The translations under genes and the position numbers were made by a program. DNA of 32,245 nucleotides from a virus: the IMG/VR virus record IMGVR_UViG_3300030098_002804, positions 1-32,245 of that record. The stretch is one strand, 5' to 3'. Positions 1 through 32,244 of the stretch are shown here, piece by piece; position 1 is the first letter of the stretch, and each line of letters begins with the position of its first letter. Under the pieces are notes generated by a model. It saw only the letters and a program-made list of their open reading frames with translations. It had not been told where the DNA came from and searched no databases.

Positions 1-77
1 TAATTAAGGTTTTAAAATCAGAGTAAAATGGCAGAAGACAACAAAGTTTTAATTGAGTTAGAGTTTCAAGGCTCACA
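1..77. repeat. Terminal direct repeat (left copy), circular contig overlap
   Basis: The first 77 bases are identical to 32168-32244 at the right end. They cover the end of the 908-residue tail protein gene (last codons and stop) and the start of the tape measure gene. The reading frames continue exactly across the join, as expected if a circular or circularly permuted genome was cut at an arbitrary point. One further base can be compared and it differs: g at 78, a at 32245. The unit length is then about 32,167 bp. A true short terminal repeat is possible but less likely, because the break falls inside coding sequence. Confidence 0.93.
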
Positions 78-6109: not shown

Positions 6110-7378
6110 ATGGCAACAAGAGGAAAAAAACGTATTAACGCAGTAGGTCTGGCAGTTCAGCAACCTAAATTACCCGTAGAAACAGACAAGAGAAAAGACT
6201 TCAGAGGGAAATGGGTGCCGTTCTTTAAAGATGATAACAACACATTCCCTAATGACTGCGCAAAGAGGGCAAAGAGAAGTTCTACTCACAACGCACTAAT
6301 AGAGTCTAAGGTGGGTTATGTAGTCGGTCAGGGATTTAATGCTCACAGAGGGGCTGAAACAGTCGAAATAGAGAAAGAAAAGAACCTGTCTGACTATCTA
6401 AGTTCAGTAAACAATCATGATGAAAGCCTTATAGACGTTTATACTAAATGTGCTAGAGATTTAATCACTACAGGCAACTTTGCCGTTGAGGTGGTTAGAA
6501 GTGGTGGACAACAGTTTATCTTTCATAAAGACATCACAACTGTGAGGCTTGAAAAAGCAGACCAAGATAACAGGATTAATAATGTTTATGTTAGCCCTGA
6601 TTGGTCAAAAATTAAAAAGAATACAAGAGCAGGCACAGAAGAAAAAATTACTATAGTGCCATCATATAGATATGGCTCAAAAGAGAGTAATAGTATTTAC
6701 TATTGTAAGGAATACAGCCCTGAGATGAGATATTACGGCATTCCTGACCACTATTCAGCAGGCTTATGGGTAGACATTGAGTATTACATACCTAAATTCA
6801 ACATCGACAAGTTCAAAAATGGCTTCATGCCGAGTGCCATAATAGACCTATTCGGTACTGAACCACCTGAGGGCATGACTGCGCAGCAATACTTGGACAA
6901 GATAGTCGAAAAGTTCACAGGTGAGGGCAATAATTCTAAGATACTTTTTCAAATGTTGGATAGTCAGGAACAGAAGTCAAGCATACAAATATTAGACAAT
7001 ATCAAAGATGGAGATTTTCAAAAGCTTCATGACTTAGCAGTACAAAACATAATAACGGCACATAGGTTTACGCCATCACTTGCAGGCATCCAAACGGCAG
7101 GAAAGTTAGGAAGTGTTCAACAAATACAGACTGAATTTGAGATAATCAATAATACAGTTATAAGACCATATAAAGACAAATTATTAAGAGTTTTCAACAC
7201 TCTTATTAAAGAAGCAGGCTTTGATGTGAAGTTAGATGTTCATACATCATCTCCTGTAAGCGTTACTTCACTTATTCAACCATCTGAAGTGATGACAATT
7301 AATGAACAAAGACAGCTTCTTGGTTTACAACCTTTAGAGAATCAAGACGTATTACAAACTAAACAAAATCAATTATAA
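6110..7378 (+). CDS. Portal protein
   Basis: This 422-residue protein should form the dodecameric DNA gate at the capsid vertex. It follows the usual pattern: a basic N-terminus, a helical N-domain (CAKRAKRSSTHNALIESKVGYVVGQG), a central region, and the signature late segment AHRFTPSLAGIQTAGKLGS followed by a long stem helix (QQIQTEFEIINNTVIRPYKD). The ending MTINEQRQLLGLQPLE is typical of portals. Unusually, it sits after the capsid and tail tube genes rather than next to the terminase. Its stop overlaps the next start as TAATG. Confidence 0.87.
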   Translation: MATRGKKRINAVGLAVQQPKLPVETDKRKDFRGKWVPFFKDDNNTFPNDCAKRAKRSSTHNALIESKVGYVVGQGFNAHRGAETVEIEKEKNLSDYLSSVNNHDESLIDVYTKCARDLITTGNFAVEVVRSGGQQFIFHKDITTVRLEKADQDNRINNVYVSPDWSKIKKNTRAGTEEKITIVPSYRYGSKESNSIYYCKEYSPEMRYYGIPDHYSAGLWVDIEYYIPKFNIDKFKNGFMPSAIIDLFGTEPPEGMTAQQYLDKIVEKFTGEGNNSKILFQMLDSQEQKSSIQILDNIKDGDFQKLHDLAVQNIITAHRFTPSLAGIQTAGKLGSVQQIQTEFEIINNTVIRPYKDKLLRVFNTLIKEAGFDVKLDVHTSSPVSVTSLIQPSEVMTINEQRQLLGLQPLENQDVLQTKQNQL

Positions 7379-19879: not shown

Positions 19880-20214
19880 ATCATAAGACCCTCTCGCAGA
19901 TGTACACTAAAGCCTATCAGGTGTTTTTACAATGGCTTCACGACAAAAAGAAACATGACTATGATTTTGATGTCGATTATATTAATAACTTAAACGGCTC
20001 ATACCTTAAATACCATATGAGAGATTTATATGACTTCTTTGATGAGCATGATATTCATATTGAAGTTTATAAGGAACACGTACTGGGAGAAAAACATTCT
20101 ATAAGATGGTGCTTCGACTGTGGAATAATAATGAGTAAAGGTTATGATAACAGGTTGTTTGCTGAGTGGGCAGCTTTTAAAACAGGATTTAAAGAATTAG
20201 AGAAGAAATTATGA
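19873..20214 (+). CDS. Hypothetical phage protein
   Basis: A protein of 113 residues overlapping both neighbours by a few bases. It is rich in aromatic and charged residues (YQVFLQWLHDKKKHDYDFDV, RDLYDFFDEHDIHIEVYKE, RWCFDCGIIMSKGYDN). A C-x2-C pair is present but no second pair. I do not recognise a family. Its place between VRR-NUC and the DnaA-like gene suggests a replication accessory. Confidence 0.55.
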   Translation: MLNHKTLSQMYTKAYQVFLQWLHDKKKHDYDFDVDYINNLNGSYLKYHMRDLYDFFDEHDIHIEVYKEHVLGEKHSIRWCFDCGIIMSKGYDNRLFAEWAAFKTGFKELEKKL

Positions 20215-20555
20215 TGTCACCATATGTATTTGTCGGTCTTGTCAGTAAAGACAATAAGGTATATAATGAAAAGAAGCTGATGAATAGCCTATTGATGTTA
20301 ACCTCAAGAATATTTGAAATAAGTGAAGATAAAATCCAATCAAAACGGAGAGTAAGGATATATGTTCAGGCTAGAACTGTGATAGCATCAATATTAAGAT
20401 ATAAATACAACATGAGCCTTTGTAATATCGGCAGAGCAATGAACAAAGACCATTCAACAGTTATCAATATGCTTAAAAACCATAAGACAGATATAACCTA
20501 TGATTTAGATTACAGAAAGAAATATGAACAAATTAAAAACCTGCATACATGCTAG
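20211..20555 (+). CDS. Stand-alone DnaA domain IV-like DNA-binding protein
   Basis: A protein of 114 residues. Its C-terminal half carries the DnaA helix-turn-helix pattern: KIQSKRRVRIYVQARTVIAS, then SLCNIGRAMNKDHSTVINML. IGR...DHSTV is the DnaA signature that contacts DnaA boxes (IG..GRDHTTV in hosts). There is no AAA+ ATPase domain, so it cannot act as a full initiator. It might bind host DnaA boxes to divert or block host initiation, or bind a phage origin. Two adjacent ATGs (20211, 20214) are possible starts. Confidence 0.75.
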   Translation: MMSPYVFVGLVSKDNKVYNEKKLMNSLLMLTSRIFEISEDKIQSKRRVRIYVQARTVIASILRYKYNMSLCNIGRAMNKDHSTVINMLKNHKTDITYDLDYRKKYEQIKNLHTC

Positions 20556-20728
20556 AATTTAAAACATTTTACTACCCCTTTTCATTTGATGAGCCTGAAG
20601 CTATTAAAACAAGAATAGAAGTCTTTAAAGATGGTGAATGTATCGAAACAGAAGATTTTACGTATATAGTAGAGGAAGATGAACTCGAGGGGTTCAAACA
20701 ATTTAAAAGAGAATATCATGAAGATTGA
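20549..20728 (+). CDS. Small acidic protein (59 residues)
   Basis: It overlaps the DnaA-like gene by seven bases and the ParB-like gene by 11, in a different frame from each. The sequence is strongly acidic at the end (ETEDFTYIVEEDELEGF). It is soluble and of unknown function. A charge-mimic or inhibitor role is only speculation. Confidence 0.5.
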   Translation: MLEFKTFYYPFSFDEPEAIKTRIEVFKDGECIETEDFTYIVEEDELEGFKQFKREYHED

Positions 20729-21323
20729 AAAAATAAATATTAATAAATTAAAACTTAATCCTGATAATCCAAGATTAATAAAAGACTATAAATTTGAAAG
20801 GCTAACAAAGTCAATAAAAGAATTTCCTGAAATGTTAAAAATAAGACCTATTGTAGTAAATAATGACATGACAGTATTAGGTGGCAATATGAGATTGAAT
20901 GCTTGTAAAGAAGCAGGCTTAAAAGATGTATATATTATTAAAGCATCAGAACTAACAGAGGAACAACAAAAAGAATTTATTATAAAAGATAATGTTAGCT
21001 TCGGTGAATGGGATTGGGATATGATAGCAAATGAATGGAGTACAGTAAACCTTGATGATTGGGGAGTTGATGTATGGCAGAATACAGATGATATGATAAA
21101 TATGATTAATGATAGTGATGAAAATAGCGAGTGGGTCGGTATGCCAGAATTTGAAGCAAAAGAAGAATCTTTAAAAATTGTTATAAGCTTTGAAAAAGAA
21201 GAAGACAGAGAAATATATGCAAAAGAACATAAAATGCAGTTTATAAAAAAACAACATAATGCATGGATGACAAGATATCCATTTATTGACCGAGAAGATT
21301 TAATTTCACTAAAATATGAATAA
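20718..21323 (+). CDS. ParB-like domain protein
   Basis: A 201-residue protein from the ATG at 20718. It starts with the ParB N-terminal fold: ININKLKLNPDNPRLI, SIKEFPEMLKIRPIVV, TVLGGNMRLNACKEAG. GGNMRLNA stands where ParB has its GxxR loop, now known to bind a nucleotide in several families. The part FIIKDNVSFGEWDWDMIANE and the later WVGMPEF are typical of phage ParB-like proteins placed next to or fused with DNA methylases. Here the neighbours are an FkbM methyltransferase and a glycosyltransferase. It may guide these to DNA; the role is unproven. Confidence 0.75.
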   Translation: MKIEKININKLKLNPDNPRLIKDYKFERLTKSIKEFPEMLKIRPIVVNNDMTVLGGNMRLNACKEAGLKDVYIIKASELTEEQQKEFIIKDNVSFGEWDWDMIANEWSTVNLDDWGVDVWQNTDDMINMINDSDENSEWVGMPEFEAKEESLKIVISFEKEEDREIYAKEHKMQFIKKQHNAWMTRYPFIDREDLISLKYE

Positions 21324-21324
21324 T

Positions 21325-21966
21325 ATGAAAAAAATAGTTTATTGCAATAATTCAGTTACAGGAGGGCATTATGCACTTCAAAACTTAAAATCTAAAGTAC
21401 CTTTTTGCAATCCAATGAGAGAATGTAAAAGTATAAAACTTTATAAAGAAGATATCGTTGCTGATATAGGTGCTTATGTAGGAGAATACTCAATTTATGC
21501 TTCTAATCAAGGTGTAAAAAAGGTATTGTCATATGAAGCAACACCAGAAACTTTTAATGTCTTAAAAATGAACAAAACCGACAATATGAATATTTATAAT
21601 AAAGCAGTTGTAGGTGATAACAGTAAAGAAATAGAATTATATTTATCTAAAGGCATTGGTGCAACAAATAGTATAGCAAAAAAAGGAATGAAAGCAGGGT
21701 ATATTAAAGTGCCTGCAATAAAATATGAAGAAGCTTTACAAGATGCAACAGTTGTTAAAATAGATGTTGAGGGGGCTGAGTATGGGTATAATATTATACA
21801 ACCACAATTAAGAGCCATCATTTTAGAGTTTCATCCATTAACTAAAAAAGATTGGATGCAAATGGCATATAATATAATGAATAAAATAAAAAGTCATGGT
21901 TTTAAACCAATTATAGAGCCAACTTTTAAAAGTGGATGGGATTTAAACAGTTCATGGGTACGATAA
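21325..21966 (+). CDS. FkbM-family methyltransferase
   Basis: A SAM-dependent methyltransferase of 213 residues (216 if the ATG at 21316 is used). Motif I reads VADIGAYVGEYS, the post-II acidic part VLSYEATPETFNVL, and VVKIDVEGAEYG is the FkbM signature. Known FkbM enzymes usually methylate a hydroxyl group, often on a sugar of a natural product or glycan. No target-recognition domain of a DNA methylase is visible. It sits between a ParB-like gene and a glycosyltransferase gene and overlaps the latter by 13 bases, so the most economical reading is that it methylates the sugar that enzyme transfers. Confidence 0.85.
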   Translation: MKKIVYCNNSVTGGHYALQNLKSKVPFCNPMRECKSIKLYKEDIVADIGAYVGEYSIYASNQGVKKVLSYEATPETFNVLKMNKTDNMNIYNKAVVGDNSKEIELYLSKGIGATNSIAKKGMKAGYIKVPAIKYEEALQDATVVKIDVEGAEYGYNIIQPQLRAIILEFHPLTKKDWMQMAYNIMNKIKSHGFKPIIEPTFKSGWDLNSSWVR

Positions 21967-22850
21967 ACAAATATCCTGTTTATATAGTTTCAAAAGGCAG
22001 ATGGGAGAATCCCTTGACTGCAAAGTTTTTTATAAAAGATAATGTAAAATTTAAAATAGTAGTTGAGCCAGAAGAATATAATAATTATTGTAAAGCTTTA
22101 GGTAAAGAAAATGTATTAAAATTACCTTTTTCAAATTTAGGGCAAGGAAGTATGCCTGCAAGAAACTGGATATGGAAACATGCTATTGACAATGGATCAG
22201 AAAAACATTGGATATTTGATGATAATATTCAAATGATAAGAAGATTAAATAAAGGCAGAAGAATACCCTGTAATGCTTTAAAAGCAATAAAAGTATTAGA
22301 AGAATTTACTGATAGATATAAAAATATTGCAATAACAGGCTTTAATTATGTTATGTTTGTTACAAATACTACAAAAAAACCTTTTTATCTTAATTGTCAT
22401 GTTTATTCAGCTATGTTAATTAAAAATAATATGCCCTATCGGTGGAGGTTAAAATATAATGAAGATGTAGATTTATGTTTACAAGTATTAGATAATAAAT
22501 TATGTACAGTATTATTTAATTCATTTATGGTACATAAAACATCAACAACTGCTAAAATGAAAGGAGGTAATCAAACAGACTTATACAAAAATAATGCCTA
22601 CGAAAAGAAAGTACTGAAAGCAAGAAGTCTTGAAGAAGTATGGCCTCAATATTCTAAAACAAAAATAAGGTTTAATAGACCACATCATTTTGTTGATTGG
22701 AAGAAACATTTTAAACATAAGCTAATAAGAAGAACAGATATTGATTGGGATGAAATAGAAAACAAAAAATATGATATTAAGCTAACAAAAAAAGATACTA
22801 TTAAAAGCCAAAGCCTGAAGAAATTTTATCAAGAAAATAAAGATGCCTAA
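21954..22850 (+). CDS. TET-associated-type glycosyltransferase
   Basis: A 298-residue enzyme from the ATG at 21954. It opens INKYPVYIVSKGRWENPLTA, then VKFKIVVEPEEYNNY, GSMPARNWIWKHA and HWIFDDNI, where DDN is the nucleotide-sugar/metal site of GT-A folds. YRWRLKYNEDVDLCLQVL and KMKGGNQTDLY follow. This fits the TET-associated glycosyltransferase group (GREB1-like), described in phages as decorating oxidised bases. No TET/JBP oxygenase or base hydroxymethylase is visible in this genome, so the acceptor is unknown. It is A+T-rich and ends eight bases inside the terminase small subunit gene. Confidence 0.77.
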   Translation: MGTINKYPVYIVSKGRWENPLTAKFFIKDNVKFKIVVEPEEYNNYCKALGKENVLKLPFSNLGQGSMPARNWIWKHAIDNGSEKHWIFDDNIQMIRRLNKGRRIPCNALKAIKVLEEFTDRYKNIAITGFNYVMFVTNTTKKPFYLNCHVYSAMLIKNNMPYRWRLKYNEDVDLCLQVLDNKLCTVLFNSFMVHKTSTTAKMKGGNQTDLYKNNAYEKKVLKARSLEEVWPQYSKTKIRFNRPHHFVDWKKHFKHKLIRRTDIDWDEIENKKYDIKLTKKDTIKSQSLKKFYQENKDA

Positions 22851-23256
22851 ACCTACGAAGTCGGACATATTAAAAAAGCAAATATTAATAGCACTAGAAA
22901 AAAGTCTTGGAGTGGTTACATCGGCCTGTAAAAACGTAGGAGTAGCACGAAGCACTTTTTATGATTGGTATAATGGCGATGAAGAATTTAAAAAGTCTGT
23001 TGATAGTATTGAAGATATTGCCCTTGACTTTGCAGAAAGCCAATTACACAAACAGATTAAAGATGGTAATGTAACTGCAACGATATTTTATTTAAAGACC
23101 AAAGGAACAAAGCGAGGTTATATAGAAAAGCATGACCATAGCTTACATCTTAAACCATTTACACATATAGAGATTGAACAAAAATTTGATGAGTACCAAG
23201 AAATTAAGCCTGAAGATAACGGAGATATACCACAAAAACTTAACGGCAAAGAATGA
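22843..23256 (+). CDS. terS: Terminase small subunit
   Basis: A 137-residue protein with an N-terminal helix-turn-helix (ILKKQILIALEKSLGVVTSA, CKNVGVARSTFYDWYNGDEE), a central oligomerisation helix (IALDFAESQLHKQIKDGN) and the C-terminal motif TKGTKRGYIEKHDH. This matches phage terminase small subunits of the phBC6A51-like type, which bind the packaging site and regulate the large subunit. It overlaps the large subunit gene by 68 bases. Confidence 0.88.
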   Translation: MPKPTKSDILKKQILIALEKSLGVVTSACKNVGVARSTFYDWYNGDEEFKKSVDSIEDIALDFAESQLHKQIKDGNVTATIFYLKTKGTKRGYIEKHDHSLHLKPFTHIEIEQKFDEYQEIKPEDNGDIPQKLNGKE

Positions 23257-24403
23257 TATAGTTATTAATAGAGGGGGTACAAGGTCAAGTAAGACATACT
23301 CCCTTTGTCAGTTGATGTGTTCTTATCTTATAAGCCAAGAAAATAAAAGAATAATTATAGCTAGAAAGACATTCCCTGCACTAAGACATTCAGTATATAA
23401 AGATATGATTGATATGCTTAAAACATATAAAATATATGAACTAGGTACTCACAACAAATCAGAGCATACATTCACTTACCATTACACAAAGAGTCAATTA
23501 GTATTTTTAAGTGTTGATGATGCCCATAAGGTAAGGGGATTAGAGAGTAATTATGTATGGCTTAATGAAGCTGATTCATTCACTTATGAGGATTTTAACC
23601 AGTTGTATTTAAGATTATCCAGAAAGTCAGAAGATGGCAAGCCTAACAAGATATTCTTAGATTTTAACCCCTCCGATATGTATTCATGGATAAAGACAGA
23701 ACTAGAGGACAAAGGCAGGGCAGAGGTTATTAAATCTAACTATCTAGACAACACATTTCTAGACAAAGAAACAGTCAGGAGGATTGAATATATGAGGGAG
23801 AATGACCCAAACTTTTGGCGCATCTTTGGACTTGGTGAATGGGGTGAGATTAAAGGTCTTATCTATAACAATTGGAAGTCTACTAATGAAATGCCTGAAA
23901 GCTATGATTGGAGGTTTATGGGCTTAGACTTTGGTTTCACTAATGACCCATCAGCACTTATTGAGATAAGGAAGTCAGGGCAACATATTTATGTACAAGA
24001 ACACATTTATAAGACAGGACTAACAAACTATGATTTAGTTGATGAGATGATAGCACAGGGCATCAGGGATGTTACTATTTTTTCAGACTCTGCCGAGCCT
24101 AAGTCTATCGCAGAAATAAACCGTTACGAAGAAGCTAGGCTTAACAGAATTAGGTTAGTGCCTACAACAAAGGGCAGAGATTCAGTAAAGCATGGCATCA
24201 ACTTAGTACAACAACAGAGTTTATTGATACATCAGGATAGTCATAACCTTTTACAAGAGATAAGGAACTATAAATGGCAAGAGAAGAACGGAGAGATGAT
24301 TAATGCACCTATAAATGCAAAGGGTGACCATGCCCTTGATGCCCTAAGATATGCCATTACAGGAGCAATAGGAATGAGAAAAACAGTTAGAGCATTTGGA
24401 TAA
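23189..24403 (+). CDS. terL: Terminase large subunit
   Basis: A 404-residue packaging motor and nuclease. The ATPase part holds the Walker A variant GGTRSSKT (29-36), the adenine or coupling segment IIIARKTFPALRHSVYKDM, and Walker B VWLNEAD. The nuclease part has GLDFGFTNDP, FSDSAEP and DHALDALRY, which supply the acidic metal ligands. The start at 23189 overlaps the small subunit gene; a TTG at 23174 would add five residues. This is the family's usual length with all motifs intact. The packaging type (cos or pac) cannot be read from this sequence by eye. Confidence 0.95.
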   Translation: MSTKKLSLKITEIYHKNLTAKNDIVINRGGTRSSKTYSLCQLMCSYLISQENKRIIIARKTFPALRHSVYKDMIDMLKTYKIYELGTHNKSEHTFTYHYTKSQLVFLSVDDAHKVRGLESNYVWLNEADSFTYEDFNQLYLRLSRKSEDGKPNKIFLDFNPSDMYSWIKTELEDKGRAEVIKSNYLDNTFLDKETVRRIEYMRENDPNFWRIFGLGEWGEIKGLIYNNWKSTNEMPESYDWRFMGLDFGFTNDPSALIEIRKSGQHIYVQEHIYKTGLTNYDLVDEMIAQGIRDVTIFSDSAEPKSIAEINRYEEARLNRIRLVPTTKGRDSVKHGINLVQQQSLLIHQDSHNLLQEIRNYKWQEKNGEMINAPINAKGDHALDALRYAITGAIGMRKTVRAFG

Positions 24404-29474: not shown

Positions 29475-32193
29475 GATAGAGGTTGAAATCAGGGATTATT
29501 ATGTAAGTGGTGCTGAGAGGACAGTAGGTCAGCTTGATATTAAAGATAGTGATGAGTTCCCAATGTCTATTACTTATTTAATCGCTGATATTAAAAACCT
29601 TTCTATCAGGTCAGGAAGTTATACCAAGACTTTCAATGTGCCTGCAACAAAGAACAACAACAAGATACTTAAAGACATATGGAATCCAAACACATACGTT
29701 GATGATGTAAGCAGTTATACGGCAGCAGGGCATAAGATGCTATCACGAAAGCCCTGTATAATAAAAGTAGATGGTACGCCTGTGCTAAGGGGTGAGATAA
29801 AAGTTAAGAACGTAATCACTAAGGGCAGAAAGAAAGAATATGTATTGCAGATAATTGGCGACAATTCTGATTGGGTGAAGCAACTTGAAAACCTATATCT
29901 TAATGAATTGACAGAGTTTGATACTGCATCAGCAAATACCGACCATACCTTTAATAAAGCAACTATTGAAGCAAGCTGGTCAGGGGGCTATAGTGATTTA
30001 GAAACAGTATCATCATATGCTTATTTTTATCCTCTTATAAATTATGGAGGGTGGAAGAATAGTACAGGAGTTGTTGTTGAAGATTTGCGCCCTGCCGTAT
30101 ACATTAAAGCCATCTTAGATGCAGGCTTTAGGCAGGCAGGCTATACTATTAATTCAACATTCTTAAACAGTACTGATTTTAAAAAGTTGGTGTTGCCATA
30201 TCACAGTCATGGCTTTGGTTTAAGTGATTCTTATATAGATGCTAAAAAATTTAGGGCAGGGAGGACAACAGACCATACAGAAGAACAATTAAATTATATA
30301 ACCCCTGTTCAATATGATACACATACTATAATAGTTCCATTTAATAATGATAGCACAAGCCCAAATTTTGATACAGGGGGGCTTTATAATACTACAACAT
30401 ATAAATATTCAGCTAATGGCATTGATGATATAAGTTTTAAGGGCAATTTTGAAATAGAACATTTAAATGATAATGTAGATGTTAAAACAACTTATGTTCT
30501 ATTATTAAAGCAATATGATGGTAGTTCAACATCTTACAAAACTTTAAAATATTTTACTTTAGGATATGGTGAAAGCAAGTCATTTTCTTTTGATAGTGGA
30601 TATATAACAACATCAGCAAGCCATACATTTGAATTAGAATTAAGAAGTGTAACTGAAGCATATTTAATACCTGCAGGAATAACAGTATCACAAGCATATT
30701 ATTATCATAAATATAAAATTAAAACTTCATCATATATTGAGAATAATATAGATAAAATACCTCAAGGTGGATTTAGTGTAACACTTAAAGATATTCTTTC
30801 AGATAAGCATACAGTCTTAGATATTTTAAAAGGAATAACACATTTATTTAATCTTTACTATCGTACAGATACGGCTATGAAAACAGTCTATATAGAGCCT
30901 AGAGATACATTTTTTGATGATATCACATCGGCTAATGATTGGACTGCCAAGCTTAATAAAAATGATTATGAGATTAAGTATATAGATGATTATAAGAGAG
31001 AGCTAAAGTTTGGATATAAAAAGGATGGTGCTGATGGTCATTTAAAAGCTAGAGATAAAGAACATGACCTTGATGTCGGTGATTATAATTATACTTTAAG
31101 TGATAGGTTTTTAATTGGGAAACAGGAGTTTATTAATCCAACCTTTGCCGCTACGTATCACATAATGGATAAACACCTTATTTATAATTCAGCATCAGGT
31201 GTATATTTTGGATATAAGAATGAAAGAAAAGACAAAGCCCCTCTAATTGCAAGGATGTGGAAGAATTGGCAATCTGATGATTCCTCACAGGCAGTAAGTT
31301 ATGAATGGATGCCTAGAATACTTGTAAAATCATACGGCACTCAAGCAGATGATGATGGCAATAATAGAGTTTGGGAATGGGAGGGCACAAGTCAGACCAA
31401 CATACCAACGGCATTGATGTCAGGATATGCAAGCGTTACACAAGATAGCTTAGAATTTACAGGCTCTAGTGGACTCTTTCAGACGTACTATGGCAAGTAT
31501 ATTAAGGTAGTGGAAAAAGGAGTTTTAATCACCGCTATGTTTAAGCTTAATATTGAAGATTTTACCGAGCTGAACCTTAAAAAACCTATCTACATAGATA
31601 AGCCCTCAGATTTACATGGATATTACGTTATCAATAAGATTATAGACTATTCCCCTGCTAAGAAAGGGCTTACTAAGGTTGAGCTTGTAAAAATTGAGAA
31701 CTTAGGAACGGCAACACTTGATGCTACACAGATAGGCTCAATATTGCCAACAGGAATATTTGGAGAGATTGGCGACAGTAGAGGAAATCAACATTTAAAC
31801 AATCCTATCAATTTCGGTAGTGGTGGTAAGTTTGATGATGCTGATATTCTTATTGGCAGAGATTACAATAATACAACTTTAGTTCTTGACAATGGCTCTG
31901 GCAATATGGCATATGCAGGCTCAGGGAGCACAGTGTTAGGTAATGGCAACATAAGCAGGGGGTCAAATCAGACTATATTAGGAAATTATAATACACCAAA
32001 TACCACAGACATTTTTCAACTAGGCACAGGAACAAGTGATACGGATAGAGTGACTTCATTAAAAATAGATAAAGATGGTGTTATACAAGAGTATGGCGGT
32101 GTTATTCAGGCAGTCATTAATGATGTAGTTATGGATGTAATGATGGAAGATGAGGACAATGAACGTTTAATTAAGGTTTTAAAATCAGAGTAA
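29467..32193 (+). CDS. Tail-tip/baseplate protein with YadA-like head repeats
   Basis: A protein of 908 residues. The N-terminal domain (VEIRDYYVSGAERTVG, RSGSYTKTFNVPATKNNNKI, GTPVLRGEIKVKNVITK) looks like a hub or tail-tip core. A long beta-rich middle follows, and a fold with KPIYIDKPSDLHGYYVINKI and GLTKVELVKIEN closes the structural part at about residue 750. The last 150 residues change in character: LIGRDYNNTTLVLDNGSGNM, AYAGSGSTVLGNGNISRGSN and QTILGNYNT recall YadA-type trimeric adhesin head repeats, then a short helical end (DVVMDVMMEDEDNERLIKVL). It probably binds the receptor. The tape measure gene follows after one base on the closed circle. Confidence 0.7.
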   Translation: MSRIEVEIRDYYVSGAERTVGQLDIKDSDEFPMSITYLIADIKNLSIRSGSYTKTFNVPATKNNNKILKDIWNPNTYVDDVSSYTAAGHKMLSRKPCIIKVDGTPVLRGEIKVKNVITKGRKKEYVLQIIGDNSDWVKQLENLYLNELTEFDTASANTDHTFNKATIEASWSGGYSDLETVSSYAYFYPLINYGGWKNSTGVVVEDLRPAVYIKAILDAGFRQAGYTINSTFLNSTDFKKLVLPYHSHGFGLSDSYIDAKKFRAGRTTDHTEEQLNYITPVQYDTHTIIVPFNNDSTSPNFDTGGLYNTTTYKYSANGIDDISFKGNFEIEHLNDNVDVKTTYVLLLKQYDGSSTSYKTLKYFTLGYGESKSFSFDSGYITTSASHTFELELRSVTEAYLIPAGITVSQAYYYHKYKIKTSSYIENNIDKIPQGGFSVTLKDILSDKHTVLDILKGITHLFNLYYRTDTAMKTVYIEPRDTFFDDITSANDWTAKLNKNDYEIKYIDDYKRELKFGYKKDGADGHLKARDKEHDLDVGDYNYTLSDRFLIGKQEFINPTFAATYHIMDKHLIYNSASGVYFGYKNERKDKAPLIARMWKNWQSDDSSQAVSYEWMPRILVKSYGTQADDDGNNRVWEWEGTSQTNIPTALMSGYASVTQDSLEFTGSSGLFQTYYGKYIKVVEKGVLITAMFKLNIEDFTELNLKKPIYIDKPSDLHGYYVINKIIDYSPAKKGLTKVELVKIENLGTATLDATQIGSILPTGIFGEIGDSRGNQHLNNPINFGSGGKFDDADILIGRDYNNTTLVLDNGSGNMAYAGSGSTVLGNGNISRGSNQTILGNYNTPNTTDIFQLGTGTSDTDRVTSLKIDKDGVIQEYGGVIQAVINDVVMDVMMEDEDNERLIKVLKSE

Positions 32194-32244
32194 AATGGCA
32201 GAAGACAACAAAGTTTTAATTGAGTTAGAGTTTCAAGGCTCACA
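32168..32244. repeat. Terminal direct repeat (right copy), circular contig overlap
   Basis: It is identical to positions 1-77. It holds the stop codon of the 908-residue tail gene (32191-32193) and the tape measure ATG (32195-32197). The next and last base (32245, a) differs from base 78 (g), which suggests a population variant or an end-of-read error. Confidence 0.93.

Follow-up and report, generated by a model that had tools for sequence, protein, structure and literature searches.

Here we report that a class of phage TAGT glycosyltransferases is linked almost obligately to a short protein domain, named here GMPEF, and that, judging from gene neighbourhoods, the conserved unit is the TAGT together with this domain. 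The unit is present in a closed viral genome of 32,245 nucleotides (IMG/VR record IMGVR_UViG_3300030098_002804, positions 1 to 32,245; this whole stretch is referred to as the window), where GMPEF is the tail of a ParB-like protein and a gene for an FkbM methyltransferase lies between it and the TAGT gene. Many phages have TAGTs without a known route to an acceptor base, and a large class of these enzymes is now tied to a defined partner domain.

The locus is probably a phage DNA-glycosylation module. The TAGT would transfer a sugar to a DNA base, while GMPEF, as its partner, would hold or activate the enzyme on DNA through the ParB domain where a ParB is present. FkbM would most likely O-methylate the transferred sugar, making a methylated sugar a plausible product, and the payoff would likely be protection from host restriction. 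We infer DNA as the substrate, recruitment by ParB and GMPEF, sugar methylation and the anti-restriction role from sequence.

GMPEF is apparently undescribed: neither the domain nor the match between ParB tails and their partner enzymes was found in the searchable, mostly open-access literature, and an earlier description is possible. The type of ParB tail predicts the modifying enzyme. The role of ParB in phage DNA-modification loci and the targets of orphan TAGTs can be tested in isolated phages, for example Aeromonas phage Aeh1 and Vibrio phage 1.076.O, and a phage pair with and without FkbM offers a natural experiment on sugar methylation.

Genes of the locus

The initial annotation described an overlapping series of ParB-like, FkbM and TAGT genes in a closed genome. 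Open reading frame coordinates and Pfam matches agree on the series, and a terminal repeat bears out the closure (Table 1). ParB and FkbM overlap by 8 bp, FkbM and TAGT by up to 31 bp, and the TAGT gene overlaps the small terminase gene from 22843. Directly upstream of the block, positions 20211-20555 encode a small protein bearing the C-terminal DNA-binding domain of DnaA.

Table 1. Positions of the locus genes, their flanking terminase genes and the terminal repeat in the window
Feature	Position	Strand	Evidence or remark
Direct terminal repeat	1..77	.	identical to 32168-32244; closed genome, unit 32,167 bp
ParB-like protein	20718..21323	+	PF02195; alignment of 18 relatives; AF2 N-domain matches ParB/Noc structures
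GMPEF domain (EWVGMPEF...), tail of ParB gene, putative TAGT-partner domain	21117..21320	+	iterated HMM; motif-only scan
FkbM-type SAM methyltransferase, horizontally acquired add-on cassette by sequence comparison	21316..21966	+	PF05050, TIGR01444
TAGT glycosyltransferase (GT-A fold)	21936..22850	+	PF20691 E 3.9e-46; AF2 pLDDT 87
Small terminase subunit, same direction, overlaps TAGT gene	22843..23256	+	PHROG 309 and 4044
Large terminase subunit	23174..24403	+	PF04466 E 1.7e-28

The ParB-like protein consists of an N-terminal ParB/CTP-binding-type domain (residues ~1-125) and the C-terminal GMPEF domain (~134-201). It scores 27.2 bits against ParB_N (cut-off 26.3), and its AF2 N-domain matches ParB, Noc and Spo0J structures with a best E of 7e-7. 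Sequence matches to Pfam and PDB ParBs are confined to residues ~1-95, the full-length partition model TIGR00180 reaches 20 bits, below its cut-off of 58, and no helix-turn-helix domain was found in the protein, whose tail is GMPEF instead. An ATG at 20679, upstream of the ParB start, is absent from most relatives.

The TAGT assignment of the initial annotation is supported. The protein belongs to PHROG 842 and matches PF20691 with 158 bits (cut-off 27.5) over domain positions 1-205 of 205; residues D95, D96, D177 and D179 are invariant among 25 relatives, and a structure search with the AF2 model returned GT-A glycosyltransferases. The start of the relatives' TAGT aligns with 21963, but positions 21963-21965 read ATA here and not ATG, so the window gene likely starts upstream, inside the FkbM gene, at 21936 or 21954. 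The FkbM protein itself matches PF05050 (E 1e-9) and TIGR01444 (58.4 bits, cut-off 37.7), and its SAM motifs DIGxYVGEY and KIDVEGAEY are invariant in 5 relatives.

Linkage of GMPEF to TAGT

GMPEF spans about 65 residues, and in ParB relatives the tail follows the pattern EWxGMPEF...WxxxYP. The domain has no match in Pfam, PHROG or PDB, and its AF2 model in the tail is of poor quality. An iterated HMM recovers it in three settings: at the end of ParB, in a protein of its own next to a TAGT (often 75-110 residues), or as an N-terminal fusion to the TAGT. Fusions are found in Vibrio phages 1.076.O, 1.124.O and Kuja, Tenacibaculum PTm1, Aeromonas phiAS5 and Aeh1, and Pectobacterium POP12, while in Vibrio henriette GMPEF and TAGT are separate neighbouring frames. 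At two loci (L211 and L234) ParB, GMPEF and TAGT share a single open frame and polypeptide. HMMs were used because sequence queries yielded little: tblastn with a consensus-like GMPEF query returned nothing from named phages, and a search of this type with a stand-alone copy returned only the Aeromonas fusions.

The GMPEF alignment being too diverged for a locus scan, we scanned viral contigs at the DNA level for the motif EWxxMPEF, a search blind to TAGT. It gave at least 120 loci, 119 of them confirmed as GMPEF by HMM among the matches listed. In this set of 119 the TAGT is adjacent in 106, fused in 2 and 600-960 bp away in 9; the other 2 stretches end at the motif and are undecidable, leaving a TAGT nearby in 117 of 117 decidable loci among the matches listed. 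The converse count agrees. A script placed GMPEF within 1.3 kb of 69 of 74 TAGTs of the clade, and among the remaining five, L015 and L137 have GMPEF on inspection, L219 has a weak copy, and L022 and L026 start at a contig end, compared with 0 of 26 TAGTs outside the clade. The sets overlap in part, so these counts are not fully independent.

Most motif-scan loci, 71 of 119 among the matches listed, have no ParB, which weighs against the proposed module. The flanks of GMPEF-TAGT pairs without ParB are rich in genes for replication and recombination, small terminases, DNA methylases and Mom, with neither tail or capsid families nor a recurrent hydroxylating gene among the leading tallies. Tailoring of the sugar is suggested, across the loci surveyed, by a sugar epimerase in 18 loci and a UDP-sugar dehydrogenase in 4, along with sulfotransferase and additional glycosyltransferases.

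Mobility of FkbM and apparent exchange of ParB tails

The initial annotation asked whether the triple recurs in other phages and saw in the A+T-rich block a hint of separate origin. ParB-TAGT does recur before the terminase genes, and the order ParB-TAGT-TerS-TerL is conserved across 33 viral contigs that encode a close relative of the TAGT, but FkbM is found in a minority of them. It is absent from the close relative L001, whose ParB and TAGT have 93-95% DNA identity to the window copies and whose ParB ends directly on the TAGT. The FkbM of another relative, L006, is 96.3% identical to that of the window at the nucleotide level, compared with 71.3% and 73.1% for ParB and TAGT, indicating that FkbM moved alone and recently. 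On these comparisons FkbM is a horizontally acquired, optional and exchangeable add-on, and the triple is not a natural unit. The low GC content is real (ParB 27.9%, FkbM 29.0%, TAGT 26.6%, genome 33.0%) but not exceptional, since other early regions are as low (about 26-29% around 17.5-19.5 kb and 25% around 12.5-13.5 kb). A separate origin of the entire block was rejected because recent transfer is evident in FkbM only.

Elsewhere the junction between ParB and TAGT is occupied by further glycosyltransferases, among them a second TAGT, by a sulfotransferase, a radical SAM protein or another SAM methyltransferase, or by an SDR epimerase or nucleotide-sugar enzymes. Sulfotransferase-like and radical-SAM-like genes also lie between GMPEF and TAGT genes at L050:2155-2778, L233:1200-1907 and L285:665-1708, the first identified by Pfam and the other two judged by sequence only. 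The window FkbM family is absent from all 119 motif-scan loci, among the matches listed, and a search of named phages with the window FkbM gave no match. Relatives above about 48% identity adjoin a TAGT in nearly all cases, and one of them (L133) adjoins a TAGT of a different class. Between these two L133 genes, at 6641-7033, lies a stand-alone 131-aa tail copy, of the type carried by other ParBs beside this second TAGT class.

FkbM enzymes act on other substrates too, which counts against a DNA-glycosylation module, and FkbM might leave the sugar untouched and, regardless of the TAGT, methylate the base or some other target. A different FkbM family (PHROG 28597) occurs between ParB and Tet/JBP without a TAGT at 5 loci (L066, L067, L074, L075, L077). 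This arrangement suggests that the second family O-methylates the oxidised base itself, and indicates that an FkbM enzyme can be paired with such a base with no TAGT involved. We regard such independence as unlikely for the window FkbM, given the TAGT beside nearly all of its closer relatives, L133 included.

The position between ParB and the terminase genes was surveyed in 80 loci chosen by ParB similarity, one of the two search patterns lying in the GMPEF tail, which favours the GMPEF class. ParB was located in 78 loci, and 76 of these 78 have a modification-type enzyme in the slot: TAGT in 33, Tet/JBP in 19 (9 also with TAGT and 5 with the second FkbM family), fused DNA methylases in 16, Mom in 8, ABC-GNAT in 5 and PAPS-reductase-like proteins in 4, with overlapping counts and with class labels drawn from HMMs trained on these very loci and anchored by Pfam matches of representatives. 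Tail clusters follow the partner closely. GMPEF tails go with TAGT in 39 of 39 cases; two further tails pair with two other TAGT types (8/8 and 6/7), another two belong to Mom loci (7/7), one belongs to PAPS loci (4/4), and those of fused methylases go with their enzyme (15/15), while one tail type is common to TET (18) and ABC-GNAT (4). The N-domains show no such grouping: identity is 56% inside the GMPEF class and 59-62% to most other classes, and mapping the tail labels onto the N-domain tree takes 38 changes, where 7 is the minimum and shuffled labels average 57. Tails track the partner and N-domains do not, so tail and enzyme appear to have been exchanged as a pair on a shared ParB N-domain. 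The proposal that ParB guides base modification is upheld as a link, the ParB slot holding base-modifying enzymes, but not as guidance, only the N-domain being recognisable and no helix-turn-helix having been found.

Several slot contents deserve separate mention. Proteins of PHROG 6059, annotated as queuine tRNA-ribosyltransferase, match Tet_JBP (L063:2566-3357, E 7e-11, and L045:4735-5520), and a MED4-117 protein with the same annotation falls below the Tet_JBP cut-off yet has an E of 3e-8, so that the annotation looks wrong. The cyanophage protein of this name had been considered as a DpdA partner and was ruled out, as a family member from another contig matches Tet_JBP. Proteins combining ABC-ATPase and GNAT domains (L078:1860-2939, L044:5459-6559) are candidate base-modifying enzymes; L078 was scanned, and the Leptospira phage LE3 protein is annotated as GNAT. 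At 4 loci, among them L079:4590-5384 and L091:5387-6577, ParB has its own tail type and is followed by a PAPS-reductase/DUF3440 protein and a 265-aa partner of no known family.

Acceptor, substrate and known systems

The absence of a base-modifying partner noted at the outset is borne out. Neither a family search of the whole record nor Pfam scans of the window ORFs found Tet_JBP, thymidylate synthase (PF00303), or a C5 or N6/N4 DNA methylase; the PF12851 (Tet_JBP) search gave no signal in its controls and found TET in five positive records, including P12024L. A regular expression for 2OG-oxygenase residues gave no convincing candidate across the window ORFs. The lack of TET and thymidylate synthase extends to the GMPEF-linked class, TET being near 0 of 74 TAGTs of the clade versus 10 of 26 others (Fisher p 3e-7).

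The sugar may still be placed on DNA by ordinary hydroxymethyl-base glycosylation, the host or an unrecognised phage gene supplying the hydroxylated acceptor. Such a route is a variant of the DNA-glycosylation reading that departs from it on the acceptor only, and we consider it a real possibility, though not the outcome we expect. Several window ORFs have no assigned family, one of 28 small window proteins (the carrier was not pinpointed) gives a weak TauD match (E 0.0015), and five large named phages with a clade TAGT encode thymidylate-synthase-family proteins, which are not necessarily hydroxymethylases. Against it stand the 25 related motif-scan records (21-334 kb, which may be fragments), with Tet_JBP in 0/25, the thymidylate synthase family in 0/25, C5 methylase in 2/25 and N6/N4 methylase in 3/25, as well as the lack of a recurrent hydroxylating gene among the leading flank families. 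It also speaks against this route that Aeh1 and 65, two giant Aeromonas phages with a clade TAGT, are missing from the listed carriers of T4 gene 42 (PMC2993671). An Aeh1 glucosyltransferase, not necessarily the GMPEF-TAGT gene, is listed as acting on an unknown base (PMC8056088).

A tentative extension is that GMPEF-linked TAGTs glycosylate canonical, non-hydroxylated bases, or a base activated by another route, with ParB as a common DNA platform on which interchangeable tails select the enzyme (TAGT, Mom, Tet/JBP or methylase). If true, this would be new on two counts, the chemistry at the acceptor and the plug-in logic of the scaffold.

A target other than DNA is distinctly unlikely. In one form, a virion protein, terminase, ParB or a surface glycan would be glycosylated and FkbM would methylate that glycan. 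The genome has no base-hydroxylating enzyme, the nearest solved structures to the TAGT model are COLGALT1 and LARGE1, glycosyltransferases of proteins and glycans acting on collagen and dystroglycan, and FkbM enzymes are common in glycan pathways. We weigh these points against a ParB slot otherwise occupied by DNA-modifying enzymes, DNA-metabolic flanking genes whose leading families include neither tail nor capsid proteins, and the fusion of TAGT to a ParB domain. RNA such as tRNA is a very improbable substrate: modified tRNA bases are glycosylated in other systems, but the context here is ParB, Mom, DNA methylase and terminase.

The module that we favour, a TAGT acting on DNA with GMPEF, shares features with several known systems. 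The T6 TAGT is reported to glucosylate DNA by adding glucose to glucosyl-HMC, and the same paper counts solitary TAGTs, lacking an alpha- or beta-GT, in 288 of 753 phage genomes, a recognised puzzle (PMC13216743). The T2/T6 beta-glucosyl-HMC-alpha-glucosyltransferase has PF20691, PHROG 842 and the GT-A fold in common with the window enzyme; here, in contrast, no HMC synthesis was found, the thymidylate-synthase-family hydroxymethylase of the T-even pathway being absent from the window genome, and the TAGT has a near-obligate GMPEF partner and a ParB tail. Mosigvirus arabinosyl-cytosine clusters likewise combine sugar-nucleotide genes and a glycosyltransferase for phage DNA, but encode a thymidylate-synthase homologue making 5-hydroxy-dCMP that has no counterpart here (PMC13390438). 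The canonical TET-TAGT arrangement, as in Nonlabens phage P12024L (Tet_JBP - TAGT - DNA methylase), also places the TAGT beside DNA-modifying genes, and differs in the TET that both the GMPEF-linked clade and the window genome lack. DpdB, the ParB-like ATPase of 7-deazaguanine DNA modification (PMC12839542), resembles the window ParB at the superfamily level, as a ParB-type protein working with a base-modifying enzyme, although no DpdA-type partner was identified here. ParBc also occurs, with function unknown, in many CmoX contigs (PMC12783734). The ParBs fused to or adjoining phage DNA methylases and Mom have the same N-domain in the same place before the terminase; compared with these and with CmoX, the locus described here is set apart by a GMPEF tail and a glycosyltransferase as the partner.
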